Source: a virus
Virus record (IMG/VR): IMGVR_UViG_3300049830_000142
Location: 62,001 to 126,000 of that record
Length of the DNA: 64,000 bases
Direction: 5' to 3' (one strand)
Part shown: positions 1,323-60,767 of the stretch, piece by piece
Layout: each line of letters begins with the position of its first letter
How positions within the stretch are numbered: position 1 is the first letter of the stretch
Notes under the pieces: generated by a model
Database searches by the model: none
Told to the model about the DNA's origin: nothing
What the model saw: the letters and a program-made list of their open reading frames with translations, nothing else
Position numbers and translations under genes: made by a program

Positions 1323-1325
1323 CCT

Positions 1326-2687: not shown

Positions 2688-2688
2688 T

Positions 2689-3102: not shown

Positions 3103-3106
3103 TTTT

Positions 3107-3355
3107 ATGCTTAAGTCAACTATGAGAGTGTTGCGTAGGTATCCGTTAGTTACTGCGGTACTAGACTATTTTCTTGCTAAACTGCAAGTCATTATCATTT
3201 CAGTTGTAGTGGCTCTCATTACCTTAGTCTATCAGCATCACGCTACACATAACCAGATCTGGAATGAGACTGGTAATCATTTTCAAGACTTAGTAAAGAT
3301 CGTTCAGCAACAGGATTTGGTAATCAAAGAGCTAACGAATAACATATATGAATAA
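3107..3355 (+). CDS. small single-pass membrane protein
   Basis: I chose the ATG at 3107, just after the previous stop in the usual TAATTTT-ATG context, over a GTG at 3083 inside the upstream gene. The 82-residue product has a basic N-terminus (MRVLRRYP), one hydrophobic segment around residues 28-46 (IIISVVVALITLVY) and a polar helical tail. It overlaps the next gene by 8 nt. The layout could suit a holin-like, anti-holin or virion membrane protein, but no family is recognisable. Confidence 0.65.
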   Translation: MLKSTMRVLRRYPLVTAVLDYFLAKLQVIIISVVVALITLVYQHHATHNQIWNETGNHFQDLVKIVQQQDLVIKELTNNIYE

Positions 3356-3770
3356 GGAAGCATTTGATCGTGGCTTTGTTAAAGCTGCTCTCGATAACGG
3401 CATAAATATTTTGCAGGCCACTGAACTACTAAAGTTAGCAGACGGCAATCAAGCGTTGATGACAGGTATTGGTGGATTAGCCGGTGGCTTAGGCGGAGGC
3501 CTAGGAGGTGCACTAAAAGGTTTTGGAATGGGTGCGCCAATAGGTGCTATTTATGGTGGACTGCGTGAGCATGAAAAACCTGAAAATCAGAGGCATACGG
3601 TTAAGGCTATGTTAGATAAAGGATTACTTGGTGGTAGCTTAGGAGCAGGCGCAGGTGGATTAGTCGGCGGAGGTATGGGAGCTATAGGTGGTGCAGCTGC
3701 TGGTTACAATATGGGAAACTTTCAGCAGACACTCGAACAGCTAGGACAATTACCTGTGTTAAATAAATAA
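3348..3770 (+). CDS. glycine-zipper internal protein with AFxxGFxKAA motif
   Basis: The 140-residue protein opens with the motif AFDRGFVKAALDNGI...ATELLKLA, shared with the proteins at 4425 (internal) and 5388 (N-terminal). The rest is two long Gly/Ala zippers (about residues 38-70 and 92-122) flanking the polar link EHEKPENQRHTVKAMLDKG. The architecture suggests a capsid-packaged protein whose N-terminal helix directs it into the prohead and whose zippers insert in membranes at ejection. This function is inference. It may be a paralogue of the 681 and 4425 products. Confidence 0.7.
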   Translation: MNKEAFDRGFVKAALDNGINILQATELLKLADGNQALMTGIGGLAGGLGGGLGGALKGFGMGAPIGAIYGGLREHEKPENQRHTVKAMLDKGLLGGSLGAGAGGLVGGGMGAIGGAAAGYNMGNFQQTLEQLGQLPVLNK

Positions 3771-20900: not shown

Positions 20901-21276
20901 AACTGAAGGCAAAGTATTTGATGTTTTGGCTGGTGTCGCTGGTCAAGGTGACTCTGGATTCCAGAACATAGATGGTACTTATAAACTTACTGGTGCATTA
21001 GGCCAGTTTGGTCAGGCAGTCTATGGTAAGGAAGAGACATTCACTTCTGAGGATGATGCAAAGAAAGCTGTTAGTTCTCTAAGAGCTATCGCTGATTCAG
21101 ACTCAACAGTAACTGGCATCGTGTCTGAAAAGGGTGCGGCTGACGAGACTGTGAAGCAAATGAAGGAGCAATCTGAGGCAGCAATCACTACAGCTTCAGG
21201 CGTAACAAAGATCTTAGGTAGCATCACTGAAATGACAGCTGCACTAAACCGTATCAACGGAACACTAAGCAAATAA
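17926..21276 (+). CDS. tape-measure protein
   Basis: At 1116 residues this is the longest protein in the window. It directly follows the chaperone pair, precedes the hub genes and is largely helical and Gln/Ala/Lys-rich with Met/Gly-rich N-terminal stretches. These are the hallmarks of a tail-length ruler. No peptidase or lysozyme motif is obvious. The middle contains hydrophobic Ala/Gly-rich patches (LQGIGAAGLGTVAGVTGTQI, residues about 140-160) that may enter the host membrane. Confidence 0.82.
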   Translation: MDDHFINLPGEMPNTLDPYAGQHQYSPNPFMGGGRMPFGIGSILMSAFGNKMWPIPMPGTSQGVYDAVWQREHDMQMMHVARQTVSSWYPFQNMGGMNQNSMLTQAVSSLMSQPDGLAATIMSPVLGGNPVQAQMAAYANLQGIGAAGLGTVAGVTGTQIRGGADAFESQFYNQDIKKINKDLGDKKKAAILANIKRANILGLSDQQGTDLFNESRNNEIVPGTTAYSRINRAGITLDGLQSKISSMESTGDIQKYLEGADLGDMTSRFKEQFGSAVSGSAEDRAKAFAEGISGVGESLKGKTSDVQAVVDALKQLQTEGKSKEQVMKDVDALKDKFKLDDSAADIVRKGVEEGMQKGSQILSKAVGEKLQQKPISEAAKDIQSVANSMLMQKITRGVNYANTLGFNYEDLVGARDEAIRQRFVGGPGTDLNKLSAQFGGGQMVKTMDAMRSAFGNDLTGKQLIQKANEFVGYSNYDLNKTEDQKDLEDNLRTLKATARVTGIDFDTIMNVEGQAQNAAAMNPLTAHLGGRELGPMVSQAAQQVLAMSSQMSSEDVRYLGGPANMFRSAVEGQILSSQQPIATQLAAMDTYFVGNDKAQEAVRSYAKNGDMTAGGWARFQEDLANQTGVNGVDLQRYSQYNPSATRKGFQGEGGAAFRKAGGQATVQGILQGLDFYYGGGEAGASMKDEAQKLIQTGQFGKLLTDKRFNMAEFAPAWEDALKKNYLYDYAVGNNSKFKAADDQVQERVKSSVELEKIVSYKMGKLNAPTIQRVVQAIASGDMSRDGLKPLASALGIGDEFLQNADLVKNTDYIQKMTAAGSVEDLLNISQDVLHKSGVSTQTTRELGAFSELAKKYNINSDDVTKIRASGGTLNELKKIIGNKSAMTTEDQAREFYRLAGTADQQMASGGLLDKYSGDFSKDSLTAAMKKPLVDQVVDYVGGTDERAKAFNDWMQKTGEQLSSGQVMEGDAGSANRVKLGKAIQALGGKKGETEGKVFDVLAGVAGQGDSGFQNIDGTYKLTGALGQFGQAVYGKEETFTSEDDAKKAVSSLRAIADSDSTVTGIVSEKGAADETVKQMKEQSEAAITTASGVTKILGSITEMTAALNRINGTLSK

Positions 21277-21277
21277 T

Positions 21278-21769
21278 ATGGCTGCATACTACTACACTCT
21301 CTCAAGTTCTAACAGTGACGTGTTCCATGGTAACCAAGTGGTTCACCACGGTATCAATATTCCTTTCTTGGAGAACCTTATCAATGCTAACTCCATGGTT
21401 ATCGTGAATGAGGTGACTATCCAGAACAGGGATACCGTTCAATACTTTTTGACTTTCAATGATGTAGTCTCATGGTTCTACTTTGGTAAAGGTCTAGGCT
21501 CTCTTTCAGTGAGCGGTGTGGTCTTGGCTGGTTGTCATAGCGCCGCCAATGATTTTCCAGGTGTGCAGGACCTATACAACGCTATAGGTAAGATCAGAGG
21601 TAAGGCACAGACTATTTTATTTGGTGGGTTCTCATTCAAGTGTGTTCTATCAAACTATACTTTCAGGGCTAATGCAGATGAAGCTTCGGTCAATATGATC
21701 GACTTCAATCTACAGATGGAAATCGTCGACCATCAGATCCCTGGTCCTTCCTATAACCCTAGCTGCTAA
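21278..21769 (+). CDS. tube-like baseplate hub / tail-tube initiator
   Basis: The 163-residue beta-rich protein has the size of a tube protein and lies between tape measure and hub. Contractile phages often encode a tube-fold initiator there. The N-terminal NANSMVIVNEVTIQNRDTVQ and end strands MIDFNLQMEIVDHQ are consistent. No motif proves it. The stop overlaps the next ATG by 1 nt. Confidence 0.6.
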   Translation: MAAYYYTLSSSNSDVFHGNQVVHHGINIPFLENLINANSMVIVNEVTIQNRDTVQYFLTFNDVVSWFYFGKGLGSLSVSGVVLAGCHSAANDFPGVQDLYNAIGKIRGKAQTILFGGFSFKCVLSNYTFRANADEASVNMIDFNLQMEIVDHQIPGPSYNPSC

Positions 21770-50016: not shown

Positions 50017-50211
50017 TTAGCTTAGTCCGCAAGTTATTCTTGGAAAACATGGGCAGCGTGAGTTACCACAGCAATAGCCCATCACTCGTTTCATTTCGAG
50101 TCCGCATTCACCACACACCGCTACGGTCGGGTTAGGATCGTAGTTAGGTGTGGGGTCCGGTAATTTAGGGATAACCGGTATTCCCCTTTCTCTCGCTTCT
50201 TCTGGTGTCAT
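50017..50211 (-). CDS. small zinc-ribbon protein
   Basis: The 64-residue protein has two Cys pairs (CGECGLEMKR, then YCCGNSRCPC), consistent with one zinc ribbon. Its ATG overlaps the stop of the upstream gene, whose C-terminal tag codons supply it. Confidence 0.6.
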   Translation of the reverse strand: MTPEEARERGIPVIPKLPDPTPNYDPNPTVAVCGECGLEMKRVMGYCCGNSRCPCFPRITCGLS

Positions 50212-50561
50212 AGATCTGTGTCTAGCCTACGTTCTTCAGTAGGCTTTGGTGGTTTAGGTGGTACAGCCATTTTAGTTGTCACCATGTACCAGGCTGTGAT
50301 GAGTTGTTCATACGCTAAATCTGCCGCAGCCTGGCATCTGCTATGATACTGTTCCTTTTCCTCCATACTAGGATTGCCAAAGTAAGCAGGCATATTATCA
50401 GGTAACTCACAAAGTGACTGACCATCACCGTCAATGGTGATTGCAATATTCATGACCCACATCCCATCGCCAGTATTGACATAAGGTTTAGATATGTACT
50501 TTACCTTAGTCAAATCAATAACACCATCTTTCAATGGGTATAACGGTAATCCTATATTCAT
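50208..50561 (-). CDS. hypothetical protein ending in the ERRLDTDL tag
   Basis: The 117-residue protein has a beta start (GLPLYPLKDGVIDLTKVKYI), a helix YHSRCQAAADLAYEQLITAW and a Pro-rich linker (VPPKPPKPT). It ends EERRLDTDL, the C-terminal peptide shared by at least seven other proteins of this region. The tag looks appended to the fold by the linker. Confidence 0.65.
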   Translation of the reverse strand: MNIGLPLYPLKDGVIDLTKVKYISKPYVNTGDGMWVMNIAITIDGDGQSLCELPDNMPAYFGNPSMEEKEQYHSRCQAAADLAYEQLITAWYMVTTKMAVPPKPPKPTEERRLDTDL

Positions 50562-51058
50562 GGTACTACTAAGTGACCGGCTCTATTCTCGTATTTCGCG
50601 AAGAACAGACTTCCGAGCACGTATTTGTTTGGATGACTAACAGCCCAGAATGCTTCCTTCAGCGCATAGCCATGAGCTATGTGAAGATAGAGGCAGATTG
50701 CTGAACTACGACTGATACCAGCTGCACAGTGAATAATGAAGTCTTTGCCTTCATACTTCTTTATGAATTCAAGGACTCTATAGGTGTCCTCGATCAAGAT
50801 TGGATGATGCCATTGACCTTTATGCTCTAGCCTAGCTGTAATGTCAGTGAACTTTAGAGTTAGGATCTTATCAGAAGCACGGTCAAGCTTAAGTGGATAC
50901 AAAGGCTCGTGTTCTTCATTGATAGAGATCATGACTGCGTTGTCAGGTAAAGACTCAATCTCTCCTGCCATTTGTGCGTTGATGTTGACAGCTTTAGGGG
51001 TTTTAGGGGTTTTACCTTTAGGCTTCAAATCTCTTAGTGCTATTTCTTGTAATGTCAT
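50558..51058 (-). CDS. cysteine-based phosphatase (DSP/PTP-like)
   Basis: The 166-residue protein has the phosphatase P-loop HCAAGISRS with Cys111 and Arg117 (C-x5-R). It is preceded by strand KDFIIH and followed by helix SAICLYLHIAHGYALKEAFW, as in dual-specificity phosphatases. An upstream Asp in the WHHPILIEDTYRVLEF region may be the general acid. Substrate unknown: phosphoprotein, RNA cap-like or phosphoinositide are all possible. Confidence 0.8.
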   Translation of the reverse strand: MTLQEIALRDLKPKGKTPKTPKAVNINAQMAGEIESLPDNAVMISINEEHEPLYPLKLDRASDKILTLKFTDITARLEHKGQWHHPILIEDTYRVLEFIKKYEGKDFIIHCAAGISRSSAICLYLHIAHGYALKEAFWAVSHPNKYVLGSLFFAKYENRAGHLVVP

Positions 51059-51248
51059 GATATTTTCTTATTAACTGGTCGGTCTTCCATTGTTCTTTTG
51101 CCCATTGACTGGCTGGCCTCGAACCAAATTTAAGGTTACCTTTTATTGCTTTTTTAATAAGCTTTAATCTACCCTCATCAATATAAAATAATCGATGAAT
51201 AAGTAACGGCAGATTATCAGTGAAAACTACATTAGGTGTTAAACTCAT
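51018..51248 (-). CDS. small basic hypothetical protein
   Basis: The 76-residue protein (LPLLIHRLFYIDEGRLKLIK) starts by ATGA overlap with the 44-residue gene upstream and overlaps the phosphatase start by 41 nt. No motif identified. Confidence 0.55.
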   Translation of the reverse strand: MSLTPNVVFTDNLPLLIHRLFYIDEGRLKLIKKAIKGNLKFGSRPASQWAKEQWKTDQLIRKYHDITRNSTKRFEA

Positions 51249-51379
51249 GGTAGTGATCCAACTGGAATTAGTAACCCAGCTTTGATGTTCTTCTTGGTAG
51301 GTTTGACGTTACGAACCGTAATATACTTGGTTTCTACTACGTTCTTGTCTGTCAGAATCTTCTTGTTTCTTCGCTTCAT
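51245..51379 (-). CDS. very small protein in a staggered overlap
   Basis: A 44-residue frame (MKRRNKKILTDKNVVETKYI, ending AGLLIPVGSLP) starts inside the upstream gene and ends by ATGA overlap with the next. The coupling supports it, but the 71-nt overlap with the upstream frame leaves doubt over which frame is native in that stretch. Confidence 0.4.
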   Translation of the reverse strand: MKRRNKKILTDKNVVETKYITVRNVKPTKKNIKAGLLIPVGSLP

Positions 51380-51515
51380 TTGGGTTCCATGCGTTTATTG
51401 GTTGAGGGATGTGTCGAGGCTGCATACCGATGTGTTGCCAATACTGTCCGGTAAACAACAGCTCTCGTCCACAGTCTTTGCATGTGGATCTGTTGCCGAA
51501 TATTTCTTCATTCAT
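51309..51515 (-). CDS. small CxxC protein
   Basis: I start at ATG 51515 (MNEEIFGNRSTCKDCGRELL), because that ATG overlaps the stop of an untranslated copy of the tag sequence, the usual junction. The 68-residue product has one CxxC and a His-containing stretch (QHIGMQPRHIPQP) that may complete a zinc site. Confidence 0.6.
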   Translation of the reverse strand: MNEEIFGNRSTCKDCGRELLFTGQYWQHIGMQPRHIPQPINAWNPNEAKKQEDSDRQERSRNQVYYGS

Positions 51516-51543
51516 AGTTGTGGGTCTAATCTTCGTTCTTCTG

Positions 51544-51804
51544 TTACACCTGATCTGCTTTGTGGTCTGACAATACAGTAGACCAAGCATCTATCAAGTC
51601 ATTTCGTATTTTTTCTGCTACCTTGCTCATGTCATATCGTTCAGTGCTGCTAACATAGTCTGTCAAACTAATGTCTTTGCCATCTACCTCTACCGTAAAC
51701 TTTCTAATAGATGGATTATAACAAGCCGGACCAACGTTCTTAAGTTGCTGTAGGTTAAGTGTGTAACCTACGAAGTTGTAGAGTGGTAGTTTTAATTCAC
51801 TCAT
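51544..51804 (-). CDS. hypothetical protein with probably frameshifted tag
   Basis: The 86-residue protein (LPLYNFVGYTLNLQQLKNVG, helix SKVAEKIRNDLIDAWSTV) resembles the 50208 product in layout. It stops at TAA (51544), but a shifted frame just beyond spells V-T-EERRLDPQL-stop at 51512-51541. A one-base change near its end would restore the tag. It may be a decayed paralogue of the 50208 product. Confidence 0.55.
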   Translation of the reverse strand: MSELKLPLYNFVGYTLNLQQLKNVGPACYNPSIRKFTVEVDGKDISLTDYVSSTERYDMSKVAEKIRNDLIDAWSTVLSDHKADQV

Positions 51805-52070
51805 AAGTCTGTGTCTAGTCTACGTTCATTGGTGTGCTTACTCGGCTTGTAACCGCCTACTAACGCATACTTGTAGACTTGGAAGTTGTAGTTAGGGTAT
51901 TGCAGCTGCGCCTTAGTCCGGCATTCCTCAGCACCTTCAAAGCTGTAGAATAACCGAGCTTTATGCAGCATAGTTAATGTATGAGTTGGGCTAGCGTTTT
52001 GGTCAAACTTAACAAAGTGACCGTCTGCCCAATCAGTGTCGACCGCACCGACTAAATAAAGTTCATTCAT
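51801..52070 (-). CDS. small tagged protein, array member 1
   Basis: The 89-residue protein begins MNELYLVGAVDTDW, has a helix AEECRTKAQLQYP then a strand NFQVYKYALV, and ends NERRLDTDL. Layout (short strand, Ser/Phe-x-Ser or -Phe helix, strand, linker, tag) is like the next three genes. Function unknown. Confidence 0.6.
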   Translation of the reverse strand: MNELYLVGAVDTDWADGHFVKFDQNASPTHTLTMLHKARLFYSFEGAEECRTKAQLQYPNYNFQVYKYALVGGYKPSKHTNERRLDTDL

Positions 52071-52360
52071 AGGTCTGGTTCAATGTTTCGTTCGTTGTCT
52101 TCCTCCCTAGGTATAATACGTTGGGTAGGCTGTTCATGAAATACTACTATCTCATAAGTATTCTCTGGTCTCTTTTCCTGCATGTAATCTCTCAAAGCTT
52201 CAGCAGAAGATACAGTCGCCATGAATTTACATCTAGGAAATGTACCATGTGAAGGAATAGCCATTATGTTAGTTCCATCAGAATTTCGTCTCCATTGTAA
52301 TGTTGCAAACTTGTCTTTGTTAGAACCGGCTGCAACTTTAACACAGTAGAGTACTCTCAT
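52067..52360 (-). CDS. small tagged protein, array member 2
   Basis: The 97-residue protein begins MRVLYCVKVAAGSNKDKFAT and has helix SSAEALRDYMQEKRP, strand TYEIVVF and a divergent tag NERNIEPDL. The tag keeps the ER, acidic and final Leu positions but has drifted. Confidence 0.6.
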   Translation of the reverse strand: MRVLYCVKVAAGSNKDKFATLQWRRNSDGTNIMAIPSHGTFPRCKFMATVSSAEALRDYMQEKRPENTYEIVVFHEQPTQRIIPREEDNERNIEPDL

Positions 52361-52707
52361 AAGTGTGTGTCTAATCTACGTTCAGGCAAGTCGGCTCTAG
52401 CTTGTGATTTACTAGTCCTAGGTTTCCGTCTACGATTAAGAACTATCTTAGTAACAAACTTAACAGTCTTAAACTCTCGTAAAGGAAATAGCTTACCTAG
52501 ATAGTATACTACATGTCTAGCCTGGCTTTCTGACAGGAAGTGAGTTGCAAAGTTTACACTAGTTACTCCGACGTCCTCGTTCTTCAGTTCTGAAGCAGTG
52601 GGAACAGGTCTAACATTTACCCACCTATCCATGTAAACTCTAGGCGATAGCTCGTAACCGTCTGTTGTCCCAGCATCGTGGACAACCCATATTTTGTAGT
52701 GATTCAT
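52357..52707 (-). CDS. small tagged protein, array member 3
   Basis: The 116-residue protein begins MNHYKIWVVHDAGTTDGYEL and has helix SESQARHVVYYLGKLFPLRE, strand KTVKFVTKIVL, a basic linker (NRRRKPRTSKSQARADL) and tag PERRLDTHL. Linked to both neighbours by ATGA overlaps. Confidence 0.6.
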   Translation of the reverse strand: MNHYKIWVVHDAGTTDGYELSPRVYMDRWVNVRPVPTASELKNEDVGVTSVNFATHFLSESQARHVVYYLGKLFPLREFKTVKFVTKIVLNRRRKPRTSKSQARADLPERRLDTHL

Positions 52708-53003
52708 AGTTGTGTGTCTAACCTCCGTTCATCCAAGTCATGTCGTGTTTCACCTGGTGTATGAACTTCTAGATTAACTTCGATGACCTCAGTTTCCAAT
52801 GTTTCGTTGACCTGTGTTGATTGTTGTATCTTCACTACCTCATCTCGCGAAGTAGTGAAGAATGCTTTCGCTAGTTCATTACCACTGTAACACCAGCCTT
52901 TGTAAGGCTGTTCAGTGTTGAAGAACTCGACAAACATACCAGCACGGTCTCCAACAATGTGCTCTATTTTATCCTTTGTTATTTTTAGGCAATACAGTCT
53001 CAT
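52704..53003 (-). CDS. small tagged protein, array member 4
   Basis: The 99-residue protein begins MRLYCLKITKDKIEHIVGDR and has helix SRDEVVKIQQST, an acidic strand ETEVIEVNLEV and tag DERRLDTQL. It overlaps the upstream membrane-protein gene by 35 nt. Confidence 0.6.
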   Translation of the reverse strand: MRLYCLKITKDKIEHIVGDRAGMFVEFFNTEQPYKGWCYSGNELAKAFFTTSRDEVVKIQQSTQVNETLETEVIEVNLEVHTPGETRHDLDERRLDTQL

Positions 53004-53214
53004 TGCGATTCCAGTTCCATAGTCCGTATATGTTCACTGCAAGAAATACAGTGTTAGTGATGATCATTGGCCAGTTGTGCATTTTCAACGATGCTATTGT
53101 CCAGAGTATGCTACCAACCATAAACCAAGGCCAGCACCACTTATGCTTTCTTGCAGCTAGAATGGCACCGATGACGGAAGCACCGGTGCCAAGCCAGCTT
53201 AATAACATGATCAT
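52969..53214 (-). CDS. PnuC-like small membrane protein
   Basis: The 81-residue protein has three hydrophobic segments: LLSWLGTGASVIGAILAA, FMVGSILWTIASL, and ITNTVFLAVNIYGLWNW. The Trp/Asn-rich pattern W...N.....G...W recalls small PnuC/SWEET-like proteins, which move nicotinamide riboside or other metabolites. This is a weak resemblance, noted because NAD-related genes lie nearby. Confidence 0.55.
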   Translation of the reverse strand: MIMLLSWLGTGASVIGAILAARKHKWCWPWFMVGSILWTIASLKMHNWPMIITNTVFLAVNIYGLWNWNRNETVLPKNNKG

Positions 53215-53564
53215 CGATCAAACAACACTGTCATGATGAAGGCAACAATAGCAGAGCCAACTAACATCACTAATAGATGCCAGGCTGGGATACCACGCCT
53301 ACACAGTTTTCTTTTGATCTCAGCTACTATAGCGTTTGTTCCAATCCTACCATTGGGCGGATCTTGCAACCCAGAGATCTTCAACAAGTCATCACACAAC
53401 TTATTGCTGACTTCCATATGAGCGTCTAACAGTGCTGGCCAACTAGGATAGCAGCGCTGACATTCATAGTGACCGTCATCTCGATGAGCACTGCAGATTC
53501 CACTAGCTTTAAGGTCTGGATAGTTTCTCTTAGCCAGCACCTCGTAATCGTTTGCTGTAGGCAT
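53211..53564 (-). CDS. C-terminally anchored membrane protein with a Cys/His cluster
   Basis: The 117-residue protein has CSAHRDDGHYECQRC (residues 24-38) as a probable metal site, an amphipathic middle, and one C-terminal transmembrane helix (WHLLVMLVGSAIVAFIMTVL). The topology would put the metal site in the cytoplasm. Unknown family. Confidence 0.6.
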   Translation of the reverse strand: MPTANDYEVLAKRNYPDLKASGICSAHRDDGHYECQRCYPSWPALLDAHMEVSNKLCDDLLKISGLQDPPNGRIGTNAIVAEIKRKLCRRGIPAWHLLVMLVGSAIVAFIMTVLFDR

Positions 53565-53565
53565 A

Positions 53566-54051
53566 TTAGTGTGTGAGTATGTATTCAGACAAAGCGTATT
53601 TGTCTTTGAGCGATCCAGGAGGTAACGTAGCTGAGTTATGCTTAAGATCCGACAACTTAGCTAATGTTGTCCAGTTCTTGAGATGATAGATGTTGATGAT
53701 GTAAGTGTCATAGGAAGTAAAGTTTTTCCTATTCAACGCTTGCAAACCATCAATCAGCATATCAACTACAAACCTAGGGAACTCTTCTAAGTCTTTTCTT
53801 AACTGTGCTTCAGTCACCCTATCATCTTCCATAGCGTCGTGGAGATTGCAGCCAGCCTCGATAATGGGTAGCTCTTGTCCTAAGGGTAACCCCGTTCCGT
53901 AGTTCTTGGTAGGATCATACATCGTGACAGCAATCTTACGGACTGCTCTAGGATGCGTGATGTATTCCTGTCCATCTTTTCTCATCTGACCTTTATGGTA
54001 GCGTTCAGCTAGCATATCGGTGTAGTCCGGTAGTTCTTGTATTGTTCTCAT
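53566..54051 (-). CDS. alarmone hydrolase, SpoT/MESH1-type HD domain
   Basis: The 161-residue protein matches small alarmone hydrolases. It has GQMRKDGQEYITHP with His33, NLHDAMED with His71-Asp72 and Glu75-Asp76, and AKLSDLKHN with Asp135 and Asn139. All metal and catalytic positions known from MESH1/SpoT HD domains appear present. There is no synthetase domain. It should remove (p)ppGpp or related toxic alarmones, keeping the host permissive or countering alarmone-based defence. Confidence 0.8.
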   Translation of the reverse strand: MRTIQELPDYTDMLAERYHKGQMRKDGQEYITHPRAVRKIAVTMYDPTKNYGTGLPLGQELPIIEAGCNLHDAMEDDRVTEAQLRKDLEEFPRFVVDMLIDGLQALNRKNFTSYDTYIINIYHLKNWTTLAKLSDLKHNSATLPPGSLKDKYALSEYILTH

Positions 54052-54353
54052 TTCATGTATTCGTCGAATGCCTGTTTCAGCATCGCTCGTTTTAGTAACT
54101 GCCTACCACGCTTTTGAATAGCACGGTTAGCGTTACGAATTGTTTCTTTGGATAGTGGTCGTGAGTGAGCACCAGCCGTCTTATCCACGCCTACACTACC
54201 ATCGCTTCTCGTAAATGGTTTGGGAGTAGGAGTGGCCATCCAGTCTTTGCTGAATGTATGGTTGCGATAGAAGGCTGCAGTCTTAGCGTTGTTCTTTTGA
54301 GTGCTTAACTTGCGTTCTGACGGCTTACCAGCTTCTTGGTTCAATGTCTTCAT
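54048..54353 (-). CDS. small basic hypothetical protein
   Basis: The 101-residue, Lys/Arg-rich protein (IQKRGRQLLKRAMLKQAFDE at its end) is joined to both neighbours by ATGA overlaps. The charge suggests nucleic-acid contact; no motif proves it. Confidence 0.6.
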   Translation of the reverse strand: MKTLNQEAGKPSERKLSTQKNNAKTAAFYRNHTFSKDWMATPTPKPFTRSDGSVGVDKTAGAHSRPLSKETIRNANRAIQKRGRQLLKRAMLKQAFDEYMK

Positions 54354-54478
54354 CGCATCAGTATTAGGGTTGCGACACCCAATGTCAACATGATCAACGC
54401 TACATTAAGGTAACGTCGAGCTATTGATTGACGAGTACCCAGCATTTCTGCCTTAGCCTCGTAGTATTGTTTGTTCAT
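54350..54478 (-). CDS. 42-residue membrane peptide
   Basis: This frame fills the gap between its neighbours with ATGA-type overlaps at both ends. The product has a polar start (MNKQYYEAKAEMLGTRQS) and one transmembrane helix (YLNVALIMLTLGVATLILM). Unknown function. Confidence 0.6.
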   Translation of the reverse strand: MNKQYYEAKAEMLGTRQSIARRYLNVALIMLTLGVATLILMR

Positions 54479-54888
54479 GGTTTGTATTCTAACAGTGTTG
54501 TAGGAGCTCCGATAGCAGTCCTAAGATAAGGTGTAGGATCAATGAGTATGTCGAACTTGTCTGGATTAGATCCCTGCTCCTCCATAGCTGCGTCTAAGGC
54601 TGCTTGAGTAATGTTGAACTTCTGGAACAGTGTTTGGTATAGTAATGCTTTCCAAGATTCATGCTCTTCAGTCATGAATAGATCTGCTGGTGTAGTCAAC
54701 GCCCAAGTGATAAAGCAGTCTATTACTCGTTCAGTAGTCGAGTCTAACCAACCAGCACAAGCAGTTTCAGCTGAGTAAGAGCGATACAGTGATGCAATCG
54801 CCCTATCATCGTATTGGTTTAGCCTAGTATTGCGAGCTCTGATTTGTGCTATCGTTTTGATCTGATAGTCTTCGAATTTGTCATCCAT
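54475..54888 (-). CDS. hypothetical helical protein
   Basis: The 137-residue helical protein has ACAGWLDSTTERVIDCFITW near the middle and no metal or catalytic motif that I know. Overlaps the next gene by 4 nt. Confidence 0.6.
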   Translation of the reverse strand: MDDKFEDYQIKTIAQIRARNTRLNQYDDRAIASLYRSYSAETACAGWLDSTTERVIDCFITWALTTPADLFMTEEHESWKALLYQTLFQKFNITQAALDAAMEEQGSNPDKFDILIDPTPYLRTAIGAPTTLLEYKP

Positions 54889-55292
54889 TATATTGTCTTT
54901 CCACAGTCGTCACAGGTATAAACCAAATAGTCTAAACCAGTAATGCCATGTGTTTGGTTGCGATGTTGACAGGTTTTAGGCCAGTCTTTGATCGTTGCTT
55001 TCATTCCGTCAGTCACCTTCATCAGTTTAGACATGAGGTGTGTTAATTCCTCAGCTCTGATAACTAAACCATCTTGCCAACTCGAACTCCAAATAGGACC
55101 AAATTGATTAAATCCTTTAAGGTGTCGAGGGTATTCTTGTCTACTGATGACAAAGCCTAATTCCGGTGGCTGAGCTGTAGTACTAGCAGCTCCTTCCAAT
55201 TCCGTAATCTTGCCATATCGCCAGTCGTTATACTCTTGAGTTGTTTTGAAGAGGGGTTCTCCCTCAGGTAATCTGTCGGTGTGAGTGCTCAT
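54888..55292 (-). CDS. hypothetical protein with C-terminal zinc site
   Basis: The 134-residue protein ends with CQHRNQTHGITGLDYLVYTC followed by DDCGKTI, so a C-x-H plus CxxC arrangement may bind zinc. The remainder has no clear motif. Confidence 0.6.
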   Translation of the reverse strand: MSTHTDRLPEGEPLFKTTQEYNDWRYGKITELEGAASTTAQPPELGFVISRQEYPRHLKGFNQFGPIWSSSWQDGLVIRAEELTHLMSKLMKVTDGMKATIKDWPKTCQHRNQTHGITGLDYLVYTCDDCGKTI

Positions 55293-55438
55293 TGTGTTTT
55301 GTTTGCGTTAAATGCTACTGACGTGAAGCAGAAAACTGCTCCAGCTAAACAGAACTGCCAGTTATGCTTAGCTAAACCAACAGCTACGCACATAATACCG
55401 GCTAAGCCCCAGAACAGGGCCAATTGATTTCTTGTCAT
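55289..55438 (-). CDS. 49-residue membrane peptide
   Basis: This frame has a 4-nt overlap with the next gene and directly follows the 55440 gene. The product has two hydrophobic helices (ALFWGLAGIMCVAVGLA and FCLAGAVFCFTSVAF) separated by a short KHNWQ turn, a small hairpin membrane protein. Confidence 0.6.
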   Translation of the reverse strand: MTRNQLALFWGLAGIMCVAVGLAKHNWQFCLAGAVFCFTSVAFNANKTQ

Positions 55439-55439
55439 A

Positions 55440-55640
55440 TTACCACCTAATTCCTTTGTTGCGGTTTTCTTGTATCCACTCCACTACTAGTATAATCACT
55501 AGAATAGGTCCAATGATAATGGATAATATCAAAGCTAGAATGTCTTCTAAAACTAATTTACGGCGCTGGTATGTTCTTTGTAAAAATACCAGCATTCCTA
55601 GAACTAGCCAAGTCAACGCTATGTATTTGAATATTGTCAT
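55440..55640 (-). CDS. small membrane protein with basic loop
   Basis: The 66-residue protein has two hydrophobic segments (YIALTWLVLGMLVFL and ILALILSIIIGPILVIILVV) joined by a basic loop QRTYQRRK. Size and topology would suit a holin-like or small transport protein, without further evidence. Confidence 0.6.
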   Translation of the reverse strand: MTIFKYIALTWLVLGMLVFLQRTYQRRKLVLEDILALILSIIIGPILVIILVVEWIQENRNKGIRW

Positions 55641-55891
55641 AAGTTGTCTGCGAGTCTAGCTAACACATCTCCATGACAAGCTTGAGGACTACACCAGCAG
55701 CCTAAGATCTTGTCCTTTAATAGAGGTAGTTGAGCTAGTAACTCAGGTTTTGTCTTGATCCATTCTTCGTATTTCTGGATCACTTCTTCCCTAGTACCGT
55801 CCTTACCTATCTCGAACGGATTTCCCCATTGTGTTCTTCGATCTATCAAAACATCGAATTTACTTCGCTTGCAATGTACCACTTTTGTCAT
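55637..55891 (-). CDS. DUF4326 protein
   Basis: The 84-residue protein fits DUF4326: VVHCKRSKFDVLIDR, WGNPFEIGKDGTREEVIQKY and a final GCWCSPQACHGDVLARLAD. The family is common in phages and linked by others to nucleotide or nucleoside processing; no reaction is certain. It is one gene away from the macrodomain, which makes a nucleotide-related role attractive. Confidence 0.8.
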   Translation of the reverse strand: MTKVVHCKRSKFDVLIDRRTQWGNPFEIGKDGTREEVIQKYEEWIKTKPELLAQLPLLKDKILGCWCSPQACHGDVLARLADNL

Positions 55892-56359
55892 TTGGTTTAT
55901 CCTTCAAATATGTGTAAGCTTTCAAAACTAAATTATAATCATCCATCAACATACCTATCCCGCTATTACAGTTAGAGCATAAAGTGCCTCTAAACTTACC
56001 AGTTTGATGCGAATGATCCCAACATAATTTTTCTTTGCTTCCGCATATCTCACAACTGTCATTCAGCTGTTCTTTCTTTGCTTGTCGGTAAGCTTGTTTA
56101 TAAACCTTTGATCGATTTCTGGTTTCAATACTACAACGCCACTGTGTTTTAGTATCGTTTCTGGGATATACTTTAACTGGACCACAAGTGTTACATACAG
56201 CTGTTTGAGTTGTACTATTTATGTTAGTCAATCGATGTAACCATTTTGAGGTGACAGATCTAGAAATGACTGTACCGTGTCTAAGTTGCTTATAATAACA
56301 AGCTGCACAAAATCCACGTGCTGTAACTGGTTTAGGGCTGCAATTTCTTCAGTTGTCAT
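55860..56359 (-). pseudogene. endonuclease VII-like homing gene, N-terminally frameshifted
   Basis: The downstream part contains the full core CEICGSKEKLCWDHSHQTGK then RGTLCSNCNSGIG. The same frame extends upstream through TARGFCAACYYKQLRHG, a typical N-terminal zinc finger, but meets TGA before any ATG. An ATG at 56359 (MTTEE) is in another frame. Adding one A at the AAA run 56344-56346 would join MTTEE to NCSPKPVTARGFC and restore a full gene of about 167 residues. So it is a recent pseudogene, uses recoding, or carries a sequence error. Confidence 0.7.
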
Positions 56360-56525
56360 TGGTCTTAGTGTATTTGACTACGATTGGGTCGAAGAGGTGG
56401 AATGGGAACGTTAGCTGTTGAATGTTCTTATCCGTGAATGCAGCATTGTTGTGCCACATTAGTGAGCGATCGAAATGTAGTTTATAAGCTACGTATTTCT
56501 TAGCTGCCGTTATCAGGGAGCGCAT
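56349..56525 (-). CDS. small hypothetical protein after the macrodomain
   Basis: From ATG 56525 (26-nt overlap with the macrodomain gene) the product is 58 residues, with KYVAYKLHFDRSLMWHNNAA and FPFHLFDPIVVKYTK. It is aromatic-rich and beta-looking. A longer start at 56561 is possible. Confidence 0.5.
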   Translation of the reverse strand: MRSLITAAKKYVAYKLHFDRSLMWHNNAAFTDKNIQQLTFPFHLFDPIVVKYTKTNDN

Positions 56526-56985
56526 ATAGGTTGATGTTGATTGGTAATTTGTTGAATACATGCTTGATCATCTCAAGCACGATAGGCCAGTGTCCACCTG
56601 CCCTATCACTAGCTATCTTGTAAGGCATGGAAATGGAAGTTAGTTTAAGTTCCAATACCTGCTTTCTTAGTTCTTCCAGAGATTGGTAGAACGCTTCATA
56701 GTTCATGTATCTTGCGCCTTCGTAGCCATAGTTAGGCTGGCCGTATAGGTTAGACACATATTTGATTGGGCTAGTCTTGTCACTTACTTCAACGATGATG
56801 CTCTTACCCAACAACTCTTTGCCGTGAGTAATGTAAGCTCGGGTATCCTCTCCATAAACTTCCGGATATTGCATCCTCAAAGCTTTGGCTACACCTGAGT
56901 TCATCGTGTTTCTTGTATTGCAGCAATGGGCTACTAACTCATCCTTTGAGTCTAGTATGTTGCCCGTTATGTTTGTTATTGTCAT
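56500..56985 (-). CDS. macrodomain protein (TARG1/OARD1-like)
   Basis: The 161-residue protein is a single macrodomain: GNILDSKDELVAHCCNTRNT, SGVAKALRMQYP, NLYGQPNYGYEGARYMNYEA and MPYKIASDRAGGHWPIVLEM. The pattern is closest to the TARG1/ALC1-type group, which binds ADP-ribose and removes it from proteins or nucleic acids. The SDRAGG segment may hold the catalytic Asp. It could reverse ADP-ribosylation used in antiphage defence or handle NAD breakdown products. Confidence 0.85.
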   Translation of the reverse strand: MTITNITGNILDSKDELVAHCCNTRNTMNSGVAKALRMQYPEVYGEDTRAYITHGKELLGKSIIVEVSDKTSPIKYVSNLYGQPNYGYEGARYMNYEAFYQSLEELRKQVLELKLTSISMPYKIASDRAGGHWPIVLEMIKHVFNKLPININLYALPDNGS

Positions 56986-57275
56986 AAATCAGTGTCTAAT
57001 CTTCTGGTAGGTAATGGTAAATCTACTTCAGGAGCTAGCGAGCCTTCCAAGTCATCACCTTCCCTGCATAGCATCCATTCAGTTGAGAATGTAGCTGCTT
57101 TCTTTGCCGGTGTTCCAATTAAGCTGTCGTGTACTATTCGCATAATACTGTTACAAGCAAATGGTCCTACGTTAGCCATAGCATATCGCTTTGGAACTCT
57201 GTCGTCCGTTCTTTTCACCCACACATCATTTGACATGACTCTTTCGTCTAACCTTAGTTTTCTAAATTTTTTCAT
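56982..57275 (-). CDS. hypothetical protein with RRLDTDL tag
   Basis: The 97-residue basic protein (DVWVKRTDDRVPKRYAMANV, IMRIVHDSLIGT) has an acidic-proline linker (LAPEVDLPLPT) ending RRLDTDL. The fold is unknown and unlike the other tagged proteins. ATGA overlap with the macrodomain gene. Confidence 0.6.
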   Translation of the reverse strand: MKKFRKLRLDERVMSNDVWVKRTDDRVPKRYAMANVGPFACNSIMRIVHDSLIGTPAKKAATFSTEWMLCREGDDLEGSLAPEVDLPLPTRRLDTDL

Positions 57276-57508
57276 GTTGATCCTGATATCTTATCCCACA
57301 TGTCAGTGAATGTAGGATCTGGTTTTGCCTCAGTTACTACTCGCCTAAGCAAAGTCTCAGCTACCCAGTAACCTTCTTTGTTGTTCAGCTCATAGGAGTT
57401 CATACTCCAGTCCTTGTCATATTGTCTATTAGTGACAACACGTTCTACCTCACCGTTATTCCAGGTAGTATAAAGCACCTTGTCTCCGACTTTGTATAGA
57501 AAGCTCAT
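57272..57508 (-). CDS. small SH3/Tudor-like protein
   Basis: The 78-residue protein has KVGDKVLYTTWNNGEVERVV and YELNNKEGYWVAETLLR, the strand-turn-strand pattern of small SH3/KOW-like barrels. Likely a binding module; partner unknown. Confidence 0.6.
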   Translation of the reverse strand: MSFLYKVGDKVLYTTWNNGEVERVVTNRQYDKDWSMNSYELNNKEGYWVAETLLRRVVTEAKPDPTFTDMWDKISGST

Positions 57509-58398
57509 TTAGCCTCCAATAGTTTTGCGAACTCCCAGAACTTAGGCCAGCTCTTGGTTACGCAGTTTGGATTAGTGCAAGTGTACTTCATGTTGTTTAG
57601 GATCGCAAAGATCACCAATGCCTGGACTATCCTGTGATCATTCGAATCGATCACTCCAGTAGCCTGGAATTGTGCCTTAGCTCTATCCGTCTCAACCAGT
57701 CTATTCGACTCATGATTGGCTAAACTAGGGAATCTAGCTGCTCCATCCTCAACTGTAATCCTGTCAAACACCCTAGCTAAACAATACTCCTCAGAATGAT
57801 AAACGTAGACATACATCATACGAGTACCTTTGCAGGCCTTATAGTTTACAGCCGCCATCGCTTGGTTCAGGATAGTACGATCGAGGGGAGCGACCCATCT
57901 ATTGTATTTCCAGAGCTCAATACGGTAATCATCAACAGCTGTTTTAGTAACTCTAAGCTTGTGAGGTGATACTCTAGGCAATCTAGCTGAATCCGCTCTA
58001 AACAGATAAGCTGCGCTAGCCCATTGAGATGTTCCACCATCAAGAGTCAGTAACTTCGTCAAGCTGTTAGTCAATATCTTGGCCTTGTCATTGCTGATAG
58101 CTCTATCCTGTAGCGTACCATGAATTTCAAATTCCTTGCCAGCGTCAGTCTGCCAGTTATAGTAGGTTAGGAAACGCAGCAATGTTCCGCTCTCCCCTAC
58201 ATTGATTGTAGTAGACTTATCCCAAGATAGCCTAGCATTTAGTGCAGCAGTAACGTCATCACCTAGATTTTCACCCATGTTCTCTTTGATGAAGCTATTC
58301 GTTCCATGCCAGTTACCATTCTTAAGGTCTAGCATTAGGTAACGAATAACAATACTCTTGTCGAATGGGATTGTGTTTCTTATTGCGTCGTTCTTCAT
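57505..58398 (-). CDS. AroA (EPSP synthase)-like protein
   Basis: The 297-residue protein carries the ordered motifs of the enolpyruvyl transferase family. These are PFDKSIVIRYLML (Lys14, Ser15, Arg19, like the PEP-site K-S-x-x-x-R), VGESGTLLRF (68-75), GGTSQWASAAYL (121-132), and NDHRIVQA (253-260, like NDHRMAM of EPSP synthase). It is about 130 residues shorter than AroA, so part of one domain is missing. It may be a minimal transferase or a repurposed binding protein. Host shikimate or cell-wall metabolism are possible targets. Confidence 0.7.
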   Translation of the reverse strand: MKNDAIRNTIPFDKSIVIRYLMLDLKNGNWHGTNSFIKENMGENLGDDVTAALNARLSWDKSTTINVGESGTLLRFLTYYNWQTDAGKEFEIHGTLQDRAISNDKAKILTNSLTKLLTLDGGTSQWASAAYLFRADSARLPRVSPHKLRVTKTAVDDYRIELWKYNRWVAPLDRTILNQAMAAVNYKACKGTRMMYVYVYHSEEYCLARVFDRITVEDGAARFPSLANHESNRLVETDRAKAQFQATGVIDSNDHRIVQALVIFAILNNMKYTCTNPNCVTKSWPKFWEFAKLLEAK

Positions 58399-58619
58399 AG
58401 TTCTCCTAAGTTCTTATCGTAATCCATCTCCTTGTCATAGGCTTGTAATGCCTCGATTAGGACCTCTTTGATTTCAAGTATCTTTGTTATTAGCTGCGGT
58501 TTGCACCCTTTGCAGCAATAGATTATGCCTACAGGTCTTTTCTCTCCTCTAATCGGAAGCTTCAGACTCATCAAGTCAGGTTCCGGGGAGTCGCAAACCA
58601 CACATTTGAATTCACTCAT
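58395..58619 (-). CDS. small zinc-binding protein
   Basis: The 74-residue protein has two Cys pairs (CVVCDS near the start, YCCKGC near residue 36) and a C-terminal helix (LITKILEIKEVLIEALQAYD). The layout resembles a treble-clef zinc module. It sits before the AroA-like gene by ATGA overlap. Confidence 0.65.
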   Translation of the reverse strand: MSEFKCVVCDSPEPDLMSLKLPIRGEKRPVGIIYCCKGCKPQLITKILEIKEVLIEALQAYDKEMDYDKNLGEL

Positions 58620-58996
58620 TTAATGTCATTTGGATATAGCGTAACGATCTTGCACGGGATCCAGGCTTCCTCATCATAATGGTAGAGGGCACAGGTCCTA
58701 TGGTAACCGTCAGCTATGATTACTTTGTTAGTCCGGATATCCCGAATCAACAGGATAGGTGATATAACTTTGGCAGCTTTGGTAGTTGTATTGATCTCGA
58801 TTTGGACTGTCTTCATATCCTTGAGATACAACTGCAGTGTTTCCATGATCTCGTCAAACACCCTGCCTTCAAGTATTTCCATCTCTACCAAAGATAAGCC
58901 AGGCGTATCTTTAGTAAACTGCTGTGCCTTAGACCTGGCCAGGCGCTCTATCTGTTGTTGAGTTTTGCTGGTCGTTACGTTGATTGCTAGTATCAT
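58616..58996 (-). CDS. ParB/sulfiredoxin-fold protein
   Basis: From ATG 58996 the 126-residue product has a helical N-terminus and SPILLIRDIRTNKVIIADGY followed by HRTCALYHYDEEAWIPCKIV. This matches the ParB/Srx N-terminal fold (P-I-x-(V/L)-(R/K)-D ... ADGxHR). ParB-fold proteins can use nucleotides or DNA. There is no helix-turn-helix, so a role other than partition is likely. Confidence 0.65.
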   Translation of the reverse strand: MILAINVTTSKTQQQIERLARSKAQQFTKDTPGLSLVEMEILEGRVFDEIMETLQLYLKDMKTVQIEINTTTKAAKVISPILLIRDIRTNKVIIADGYHRTCALYHYDEEAWIPCKIVTLYPNDIK

Positions 58997-59501
58997 TTTG
59001 TATTGTTTCGATTGGTGTCTCAGTACTCTCAATAGGCGTGAACGGTTGTGGACACAGCATATCGAGAATAGAGACTAGTTGTTTGTGTATCTCACCATCT
59101 TTAGGAAACCCGTATCTTTTAGGCATGTGATTGTTGATAAAGTCACGAGAAGAAGTAGCCATTTCGCTGCCTCTAGCTGTGATATCCGCAATCATCTCGT
59201 ACCTATAGATCAACGGCATCTCTTTGATAGTTCCCCAATACTCTGGGTGGTGAGGGTTAGTGCGCTGGTGATGCTCGATAGCATACTTGAGTCCAGCTCT
59301 ATTAGTTGTGTTTGGATCGGTCAAGAACTGCCATTCAATTCCAGAGAACTTGCTGTTGTCATGCAGAAAGCTGTTTTTCAACAACCCTCTAGCCAACTCA
59401 ACTTCTCCTTTATCAGCTAATTTCTCAGCCAATATTGAACAATGCTCCCTTACTAAGTTTATGTGTCTTAGTAATCCATCCATTCTCTCATGCTCTGTCA
59501 T
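58929..59501 (-). CDS. DUF5662-like HD-type protein
   Basis: The 190-residue protein has LKNSFLHDNSKFSGIEWQFL, HHQRTNPHHPEYWG and YRYEMIADITARG, the pattern of DUF5662, which places HD-x2-SK and HH...NPHHPEYW together as a probable metal site. The last 50 residues are polar and overlap the next gene by 68 nt. Possible phosphohydrolase. Confidence 0.7.
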   Translation of the reverse strand: MTEHERMDGLLRHINLVREHCSILAEKLADKGEVELARGLLKNSFLHDNSKFSGIEWQFLTDPNTTNRAGLKYAIEHHQRTNPHHPEYWGTIKEMPLIYRYEMIADITARGSEMATSSRDFINNHMPKRYGFPKDGEIHKQLVSILDMLCPQPFTPIESTETPIETIQNDTSNQRNDQQNSTTDRAPGQV

Positions 59502-59504
59502 AGG

Positions 59505-59684
59505 TCACTTTCTCGGTACACTCATATCACGATCTAGTTGCATATGAATAGCAACCATAGTGTGATGCGAGTATTTGGTCACTGGGTCAATCCATAGGAA
59601 GTTTTCATCGCCAACCCAGCCTGCAGCTTCAAGGTATTTGGCCATGACTTCACAATGTTGATCTGCTAATTCTCGTCTACTCAT
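59505..59684 (-). CDS. 59-residue hypothetical protein
   Basis: ATG 59684 (ATGA overlap with the upstream gene) opens a frame MSRRELADQHCEVMAKYLEA continuing with GWVGDENFLWIDPV and ending SVPRK. Mixed helix and strand; the stop lies 3 nt before the DUF5662 start. No family known. Confidence 0.6.
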   Translation of the reverse strand: MSRRELADQHCEVMAKYLEAAGWVGDENFLWIDPVTKYSHHTMVAIHMQLDRDMSVPRK

Positions 59685-59899
59685 GGCGTTACTTGTAATC
59701 TCATTAGTTGTTCAGCCTTAACTTCGCACATCCAACCGCTCAATGCGTATTTCCAGCAATTGTCAGCCTTATGCCAGACCACATATTCTATGGTCACAAT
59801 AGCATGCTTATACTTGCTGCCTTTGGATAGCTTCATTACAACTTGCTGTCCAGGCCAAAACTCAGGTTTGTCTTTGGCCTTTATCTTAAATATTTTCAT
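59681..59899 (-). CDS. small beta-barrel-like hypothetical protein
   Basis: The 72-residue protein (FWPGQQVVMKLSKGSKYKHA, then VWHKADNCWKYALSGW) looks like an SH3-type module. Its ATG overlaps the stop of the upstream tagged gene. Confidence 0.6.
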   Translation of the reverse strand: MKIFKIKAKDKPEFWPGQQVVMKLSKGSKYKHAIVTIEYVVWHKADNCWKYALSGWMCEVKAEQLMRLQVTP

Positions 59900-60168
59900 A
59901 GGTCTGGGTCTAACTGTCGTGCTGAATGCTCTAGTCTAATAGGAGCCTTCAAGTTTCCGGCTGGTTCAGTTAACTTACCTTCCCAGCTACATTTGCACTT
60001 ATACTGGTAAGTGCCTTTGATCCTGGTTATGCCTGTCTGTCTACAACTAGGGCATACTGGACCATACATCTGCACACCGTCAATGTAGCCGCAGAACCTA
60101 TTTTGACAGACATCGCCTAAGCTAGTCCTCATTAAGGGTGCGCCACATCCTGGACATTCGTTTTCCAT
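59896..60168 (-). CDS. double zinc-ribbon protein with ARQLDPDL tag
   Basis: The 90-residue protein has CPGCGAPLMR...CQNRFCG and CPSCRQTGITRIKGTYQYKC followed by KC, i.e. two zinc ribbons. A linker is followed by SARQLDPDL, a variant of the regional C-terminal tag. Confidence 0.65.
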   Translation of the reverse strand: MENECPGCGAPLMRTSLGDVCQNRFCGYIDGVQMYGPVCPSCRQTGITRIKGTYQYKCKCSWEGKLTEPAGNLKAPIRLEHSARQLDPDL

Positions 60169-60169
60169 A

Positions 60170-60343
60170 TTAGCCTGCTTTCAATAGTTTTAGTACGAGC
60201 TTAGCTTTCTTTAGCTTAGCCTCGGTTTTGTTGAATTCTTCTTTAGAGACGTTTGCCTTGAAATTAGAGCTATTCACCCTTTTAGTCAAGAACTCTATGT
60301 ACGTCTCTTCGTGTTTGATCCGTTTAGTTTGTTCTGCGTTCAT
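60170..60343 (-). CDS. 57-residue helical protein
   Basis: ATG 60343 overlaps the upstream stop (ATGA). The frame runs MNAEQTKRIKHEETYIEFLT to LKKAKLVLKLLKAG and is highly charged and helical. It fits exactly between its neighbours, which supports it. Confidence 0.6.
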   Translation of the reverse strand: MNAEQTKRIKHEETYIEFLTKRVNSSNFKANVSKEEFNKTEAKLKKAKLVLKLLKAG

Positions 60344-60441
60344 TCGTCATCCCTTAAACTGATGATCATAGCAATCACGTCTATCAATACGATGATTACT
60401 AAAACAGTTATCCAAGCGATTTTCAGCACATTATGTATCAT
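60340..60441 (-). CDS. 33-residue membrane peptide
   Basis: The ATG at 60441 is formed by the last Leu codon and stop of the tagged gene upstream. The product is one transmembrane helix (VLKIAWITVLVIIVLIDVIA) with short polar ends. It ends by ATGA overlap with the next gene. Confidence 0.55.
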   Translation of the reverse strand: MIHNVLKIAWITVLVIIVLIDVIAMIISLRDDE

Positions 60442-60767
60442 AGGTTTGGATCCAGTCTCCTATCCTCGTCCTTAGCATCCGGTGTTATTGTAACCGGTTT
60501 AGTATTCCGAGGATGTGCCCCACTCTTTAACCTAAATAGAGTCATATCCTTATGCTCGCTCAGCCATACAACTGCCATTACTGAGGTAGCTATTGGAGCA
60601 AAGAAGATAATGACCGGTATCCAGTATAAGTGTTCTAGCTTTACATACCCATCAGTGTAGGCTTGATCGCATATACCAATGATGCAACCGATAACACCAT
60701 ACAATACCCAGAGTGTGAGAATATAGTGTGTTGTGCAAAAGTCGTAAATTGATGCTAGCATATTCAT
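60438..60767 (-). CDS. membrane protein with DRRLDPNL tag
   Basis: The 109-residue protein has two or three hydrophobic segments (YILTLWVLYGVIGCIIGI and WIPVIIFFAPIATSVMAVVW) and a polar C-terminal linker that ends EDRRLDPNL. The tag is therefore present on a membrane protein as well as on soluble ones. Confidence 0.65.
   Translation of the reverse strand: MNMLASIYDFCTTHYILTLWVLYGVIGCIIGICDQAYTDGYVKLEHLYWIPVIIFFAPIATSVMAVVWLSEHKDMTLFRLKSGAHPRNTKPVTITPDAKDEDRRLDPNL

Follow-up and report, generated by a model that had tools for sequence, protein, structure and literature searches.

A C-terminal peptide tag on unrelated accessory proteins of a large phage matches the tails of two of its core proteins, an AAA+ ATPase and a DUF3150 protein

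We analyzed a 64,000-nucleotide stretch of viral DNA, termed the window, which spans 62001-126000 in a viral contig of 134,588 bp (IMG/VR record IMGVR_UViG_3300049830_000142), here named G000. Among the genes of the contig are those for a phage terminase and for a multisubunit RNA polymerase. Eight genes in the window end in variants of one short peptide, [DE]-x-R-R-L-D-x-x-L, typically E-R-R-L-D-T-x-L and termed the tag below, and a ninth copy is out of frame. All nine lie where a preliminary description, made from the window alone, had placed them, and Table 1 lists them together with three tagged genes found elsewhere in G000 and two core genes that carry the same motif. As that description had also noted, the bodies that bear the tag are unrelated to one another. 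Linkers rich in Pro or in charged residues lie between body and tag. The protein encoded at 50208..50561 has neither a Pfam match nor a homologue in the relatives of G000, and the Pfam zinc-ribbon matches of the protein encoded at 59896..60168 are all sub-threshold. The orphan copy at 51512..51541 is probably a frameshifted or relic tag. The last Leu codon and the stop had been said always to form YTATGA and to contain the next ATG. This is true of the window copies, but the plus-strand copy beyond the window ends in TTATAA and 8 of 28 tagged genes in the relative G001 show no ATGA overlap.

Table 1. Tagged genes and related features of G000. Positions refer to the window unless preceded by G000.
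Feature	Position	Tag codons	Strand	C-terminus and remarks
Tagged gene, 117 residues	50208..50561	50211-50237	-	PPKPPKPTEERRLDTDL; last nine residues EERRLDTDL
Orphan ninth copy with stop	51512..51541		-	EERRLDPQL; -1 frame relative to ORF 51544-51804, past the stop of that ORF
ORF, 86 residues	51544..51804		-	own tag now out of frame
Tagged gene, 89 residues	51801..52070	51804-51830	-	HTNERRLDTDL
Tagged gene, 97 residues	52067..52360	52070-52096	-	EEDNERNIEPDL; diverged tag NERNIEPDL
Tagged gene, 116 residues	52357..52707	52360-52386	-	DLPERRLDTHL; C-terminal half basic
Tagged gene, 99 residues	52704..53003	52707-52733	-	HDLDERRLDTQL; tag DERRLDTQL
Tagged gene, 97 residues	56982..57275	56985-57011	-	LPLPTRRLDTDL; tag PTRRLDTDL
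Tagged gene, 90 residues	59896..60168	59899-59925	-	EHSARQLDPDL; Cys-rich, zinc-ribbon-like body
Tagged gene, 109 residues	60438..60767	60441-60467	-	AKDEDRRLDPNL; tag EDRRLDPNL; N-terminal half hydrophobic (membrane-type)
Tagged gene beyond window	G000 127443		-	NERQLDPHL
Tagged gene beyond window	G000 128021		-	GDRNLDQTI
Tagged gene beyond window	G000 133707		+	EERRMDTDL; TAA stop (TTATAA)
DUF3150 protein (PF11348)	G000 857-1861			TRRLDTEGI near C-terminus; left end of contig
AAA+ ATPase (PF00004), apparently Ycf46-like	G000 1915-3579			NRRLDEKFS near C-terminus; left end of contig, neighbour of 857-1861

Open reading frames (ORFs) were called mechanically, and their totals include some spurious ones. 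The loose motif R[KRNQLAE][LIM][DES] occurs within the last 14 residues of 14 of the 206 G000 ORFs. The expected number, 1.07, was derived from the rate of the motif in protein interiors, for which the slightly narrower class KRNQL was used at position 2. Likewise, R-x-[LIM]-[DE]-x-x-L followed by a stop matches 11 times in G000, compared to 2 for the reversed control. None of the structural-region proteins of G000 is tagged.

Relatives of G000 in IMG/VR were found via the terminase, whose identity to that of G000 is 77% in G001, G003, G010, G002 and G007, 80% in G008 and 49% in G006. The additional relatives G012, G014 and G016 were reached through a tagged Cys-repeat family. All of them are metagenomic contigs, many of which are incomplete. 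A pattern search of the kind proposed in the preliminary description detected tags across the G000 contig and its relatives. With the strict pattern, R-x-[LIM]-[DE]-x-x-[LI] at the C-terminus, 29 of the 156 ORFs of G001 are tagged, as are 12 in G003 and 16 in G010, each of these counts including one short ORF ending in VIESRL that is probably not a tag. The numbers for G012, G014 and G016 are 22, 17 and 15, respectively. Ratios of R-x-[LIM]-[DE]-x-x-L-stop matches to the reversed control in relatives are 36:1, 30:1, 27:1 and 19:3. Moreover, when the C-termini of all ORFs were compared in an end-anchored, motif-blind way, the tag emerged again in the G001 group; there it reads DRKLEPDL or similar and often has an upstream R-x-E extension. 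The position of the tag is always C-terminal.

The sampled tagged ORFs sort into 27 body families, a count that includes one DUF3150 protein and omits the gene at 56982, which was displaced by an overlapping ORF. The tag thus sits on about 27 mutually unrelated bodies, among them a 65-member Cys-triplet repeat family, small proteins opening with MNEYxVGDxV, and zinc-ribbon-like and membrane-type proteins. In blastp searches none of the window-tagged proteins has a homologue in G001, G003 or G006, although G003 is largely collinear with G000 from position 1 to ~101 kb (~100 kb core genome). From one related phage to the next, turnover of the bodies is thus complete, whereas the tag persists.

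The Cys-repeat family combines a fixed N-terminus (MTITKRxxRWYDENNNSW) with a Cys at every third residue and a very variable repeat length. Its members (L036:7674-8069 and L038:7087-7539 of G001 and others) reach up to 14 copies per genome, and their sequence pattern looks like that of a Cys-cored solenoid with shuffled repeats. Outside the clade no match was found in phage records or cellular genomes; one distant viral homologue (in G023) is untagged.

The tag is selected as a peptide, as the preliminary description had suspected from its synonymous codon variation. For 24 non-redundant tags of G001, the fraction of equal residues encoded by the same codon is 0.437, compared to 0.440 ± 0.042 after random back-translation using the genome's own codon usage. 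In G000 this fraction is 0.524 versus 0.350 ± 0.046, a value reached by 0.7% of the simulations, and in G014 it is 0.648 versus 0.446 ± 0.059. These excesses indicate that some of the tags, in G000 in particular, were probably copied recently as DNA. They are mild and confined to G000 and G014; the codon test of G001 and the frame test described below showed no nucleotide conservation, whatever the frame, in excess of the needs of the peptide. Over the last eight codons of G001-group orthologues, pS (synonymous differences) is 0.094 and pN (nonsynonymous differences) is 0.021, resulting in a pN/pS of ~0.23 (30 pairs, not all independent). This is below 1, the outcome that the preliminary description had linked to selection on the peptide. 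For G000 itself no close relative was found, a DNA-level search of the window region against phage records gave no near match, and one window tagged protein searched against viral contigs had no match, so that dN/dS of G000's own tags is not computable. Within the tags, D/E exchange and third codon positions are free, and second positions are fixed. Moreover, junction DNA kept in changing frames, which the preliminary description had named as pointing away from a peptide, is not the pattern seen: in G000, G001, G012, G014 and G016, 97 of 107 motif-plus-stop sites terminate an ORF of at least 55 residues and orphans are few. Among the exceptions are the orphan tags at 51512 and, in G001, at 73878 and 74824; body loss appears to have left these behind as relics.

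Going beyond the preliminary description, we found that the accessory-tag motif also forms a conserved C-terminal tail on two core proteins of the phage, its AAA+ ATPase and its DUF3150 protein. The ATPase appears to be Ycf46-like, judged by its cyanobacterial best matches and general knowledge of the family. In many distant phages the two genes share an operon with DUF1257 (PF06868, Ycf35) and DUF2997 (PF11211) genes; the operon of G001 has DUF2997 (38.9 bits) and a DUF1257 relative (20.1 bits, just under the cut-off of 22.2). DUF3150 ends seen are TRRLDTEGI, TRRLDFDEL, TRRLDLEL and FRKLSI, and those of the ATPase are NRRLDEKFS, DRALDPFN, RELDIS and MRKLSIAIGNEE. Profile searches of IMG/VR yielded 42 DUF3150 and 80 ATPase loci, and most of the respective C-termini retain R-[KR]-[LIV]-[DES]-[LIV] or a similar sequence. 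All 39 aligned DUF3150 proteins and 41 of the 43 aligned ATPases have the tail Arg, though the flanking tail barely aligns, and C-terminal R-x-[LIV]-[DEST]-hydrophobic is retained among divergent homologues of the module. Most phages have the tail on the ATPase, on DUF3150 and on one extra protein only, and its spread onto accessory proteins is seen in this clade only. The third operon gene is tailed in many loci, and its tail matches the DUF3150 tail of its own contig beyond chance (10 loci, permutation p = 0.011). In G006, where the strict pattern detects no accessory tags, RKLSI is common to the ATPase (MRKLSIAIGNEE), DUF3150 (FRKLSI) and the third gene (HRKLSI), and in L191 four proteins end in RSMEI, RALEI, RDLEI and RALEI. 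Some cellular Ycf46-like proteins end in RHLDI, RKLEL or RRLDI, and cyanobacterial ones end in QR[LM]EF, which is similar and register-shifted. Finally, the ATPase tail is predicted to be disordered (pLDDT below 50) and the DUF3150 tail is predicted, with moderate confidence, to follow the last helix, as expected for a linear docking motif.

A search of open-access full text found no paper on the AAA+/DUF3150/DUF1257/DUF2997 operon in phages and no described tail or mechanism, and a fold search of the PDB with DUF3150 gave no significant match. The PADLOC assignment of the ATPase as IetA was rejected, the match being confined to the AAA domain. At G001 21270-21560 (L036:1270-1560), and at the same place in G003, ~290 bases, likely an intron or insertion, split the ATPase gene into two ORFs just before Walker A; split ATPase ORFs are also present in L163, L166 and L144. 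A Treponema operon (L270:3711-9865), which also encodes a radical SAM protein and DUF2997, has an AAA protein with the tail RQLELNK.

We favour the reading that the peptide is a C-terminal docking tag, probably a short linear motif on a flexible linker, for the AAA+/DUF3150/DUF1257 module or its partner. One putative receptor would read all tails; it would either belong to the AAA+/DUF3150/DUF1257 complex or be a partner bound by it. In this clade dozens of small accessory proteins that evolve fast would have acquired copies of the tail. As clients, adaptors or cargo, these proteins would thereby reach the same machine or place, and any new body would become usable once tagged. Docking could result in remodelling, virion loading or turnover. 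The preliminary description had proposed sorting, complex recruitment or stability; because the tag is the conserved tail of the AAA+/DUF3150 operon, this would narrow to docking at the module's partner.

Several points weigh against a docking tag of this kind. No single neighbour explains the presence of the ATPase tail, which occurs mostly with DUF1257 and also in loci where none was found. The core tails (R-x-L-D-hydrophobic) and the accessory tag (R-x-L-[DE]-x-x-L) differ in length, so that a shared receptor is something we infer from their lineage-specific sequence resemblance. The co-variation test between DUF3150 and the third gene is small (10 loci), and the statistics ignore phylogeny. 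Finally, a search made with DUF1257 only, out of DUF1257 and DUF2997, gave no solved relative that would show a peptide groove. More specific versions were also considered. DUF1257 as the sole receptor is unsupported, since tails also occur at loci without a detected DUF1257. Intramolecular docking of the tails was set aside in view of the predicted disorder of the ATPase tail and the position of the DUF3150 tail after the last helix. A VWA-like protein directly downstream of two tagged genes (G000 126550-127446; L011:1051-1947) has an apparently intact DxSxS MIDAS motif; its candidacy as a receptor acting via this motif was dropped, as the gene has no homologue in the sampled relatives.

The capsid targeting sequence of T4 and the signal peptide of Photorhabdus virulence cassettes (PVC) with the ATPase Pvc15 are the closest working analogues. 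The T4 sequence is N-terminal. T4 internal proteins have highly diverse bodies and only the targeting sequence is conserved, so that, as here, one conserved terminal peptide is carried by diverse, fast-changing phage proteins (PMC3012670). The tag differs in being C-terminal, in reading R-x-L-[DE] and in occurring also on the AAA+ ATPase and DUF3150. In PVC and other extracellular contractile injection systems, too, a terminal peptide on diverse cargos is linked to an AAA ATPase; however, PVC signal peptides are N-terminal, disordered and 50-70 residues long, and Pvc15 has tandem AAA domains (PMC11495950), whereas the tag comprises about 7-9 C-terminal residues and the ATPase has one PF00004 match and itself carries the motif. 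Phage-nucleus import (ChmA/PicA; Chimalliviridae) is likewise a selective recruitment of phage proteins in large phages. It reportedly relies on a recognition surface and on no N- or C-terminal signal sequence (PMC11087766), for which reason import into a nucleus was rejected as an explanation of the terminal peptide. Among ten large unannotated proteins, the only ones examined for this, none has a chimallin-named Pfam match.

These analogues bear on the best surviving alternative, that accessory proteins enter the head or tail tube of the virion by virtue of the tag, loaded there by the AAA+ module, and are injected at the next infection. The T4-like evolutionary pattern, the common terminal peptide of PVC payloads used by Pvc15, and the Treponema Ycf46-like AAA protein with the tail RQLEL, whose gene lies in a contractile-injection operon alongside those for CIS_tube (PF19266) and Phage_base_V (PF04717) and is trailed by DUF2997, are consistent with such loading. 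We nevertheless regard it as rather unlikely, because the tagged genes of G001 are interleaved with replication and repair genes, the tag is on no structural-region protein of G000, and the number of tailed proteins is only about three in most phages with AAA/DUF3150. It is less likely still that core tails and accessory tag are unrelated and convergent, the latter having a separate receptor. The different spacing after the acidic residue would fit this; yet core tails resemble the tags of their own genome (RRLDT- in G000, RALDPF- and RRLDFD- in G001), the DUF3150 end of G009, RRLDLEL, is a perfect tag, and one tail is common to four proteins in L191. We consider improbable, too, a C-degron by which a protease of the host or the phage, possibly supplied with substrates by the AAA+ protein, would keep early accessory proteins short-lived. 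The tag is strictly C-terminal, follows a disordered linker, ends in a hydrophobic residue and has an AAA+ protein in the same system. The motif, however, also ends the ATPase and DUF3150 of distant phages, for which constitutive degradation is not expected; internal Arg and acidic residues are conserved and not the end alone; and in the ATPase the motif may sit several residues inside (MRKLSIAIGNEE). Very improbable, largely refuted already and unsupported as the main explanation is the junction cassette of the preliminary description, a nucleotide-level element for translational coupling or recombination that is incidentally translated: the codon sharing in G000, the ATGA overlap of most tagged genes and the three orphan copies fit it, but G001 tags lack a codon excess, second positions are fixed whereas D and E interchange and third positions vary freely, some tags have TAA or TAG stops or no overlap, and the ORF-ending sites and the pN/pS given above speak for a peptide.

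Other genes of G000 and its relatives were of note. A macro-domain protein (56500-56985, minus strand; PF01661, above cut-off; PADLOC match to DarG) adjoins a tagged gene and possibly counters ADP-ribosylation. The dual-specificity-phosphatase-like protein at 50558-51058 (minus strand) is sub-threshold to PF00782, and a similar one comes after the tailed third gene in G006 (71507-72058). The proteins L118:10484-11011 (G014) and L011:2522-3400 (G000) are similar in build, with an amphipathic or hydrophobic N-terminus, a coiled-coil-like middle and an RNLD tag; blastp between them gave no match. Finally, L007:9522-11933 (G000) encodes a single chain of 803 residues matching the ribose-phosphate pyrophosphokinase and nicotinamide phosphoribosyltransferase families.

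In large phages, most accessory genes lack a known function and homologues. By their shared tag, dozens of them can be grouped as users of one putative receptor, so that a single pull-down could reveal the partner common to all. The tag also offers a way into the AAA+/DUF3150/DUF1257/DUF2997 operon, which phages carry widely and cyanobacteria share in part (Ycf46, Ycf35). More tentatively, the tails may form a universal C-terminal address code for the Ycf46-like AAA+ machine, in phages and partly in cellular operons, which one clade would have turned into a plug-in system for acquired small proteins via a tag of 7-9 residues; we hold this to be possible rather than probable. Should the tag prove to be a portable address, chosen proteins could be directed by it to a phage machine or compartment. 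Since it also ends the phages' own AAA+ machine, our analysis suggests that the tag is a general 'dock here' signal and a first means of approaching many phage genes with no known function.

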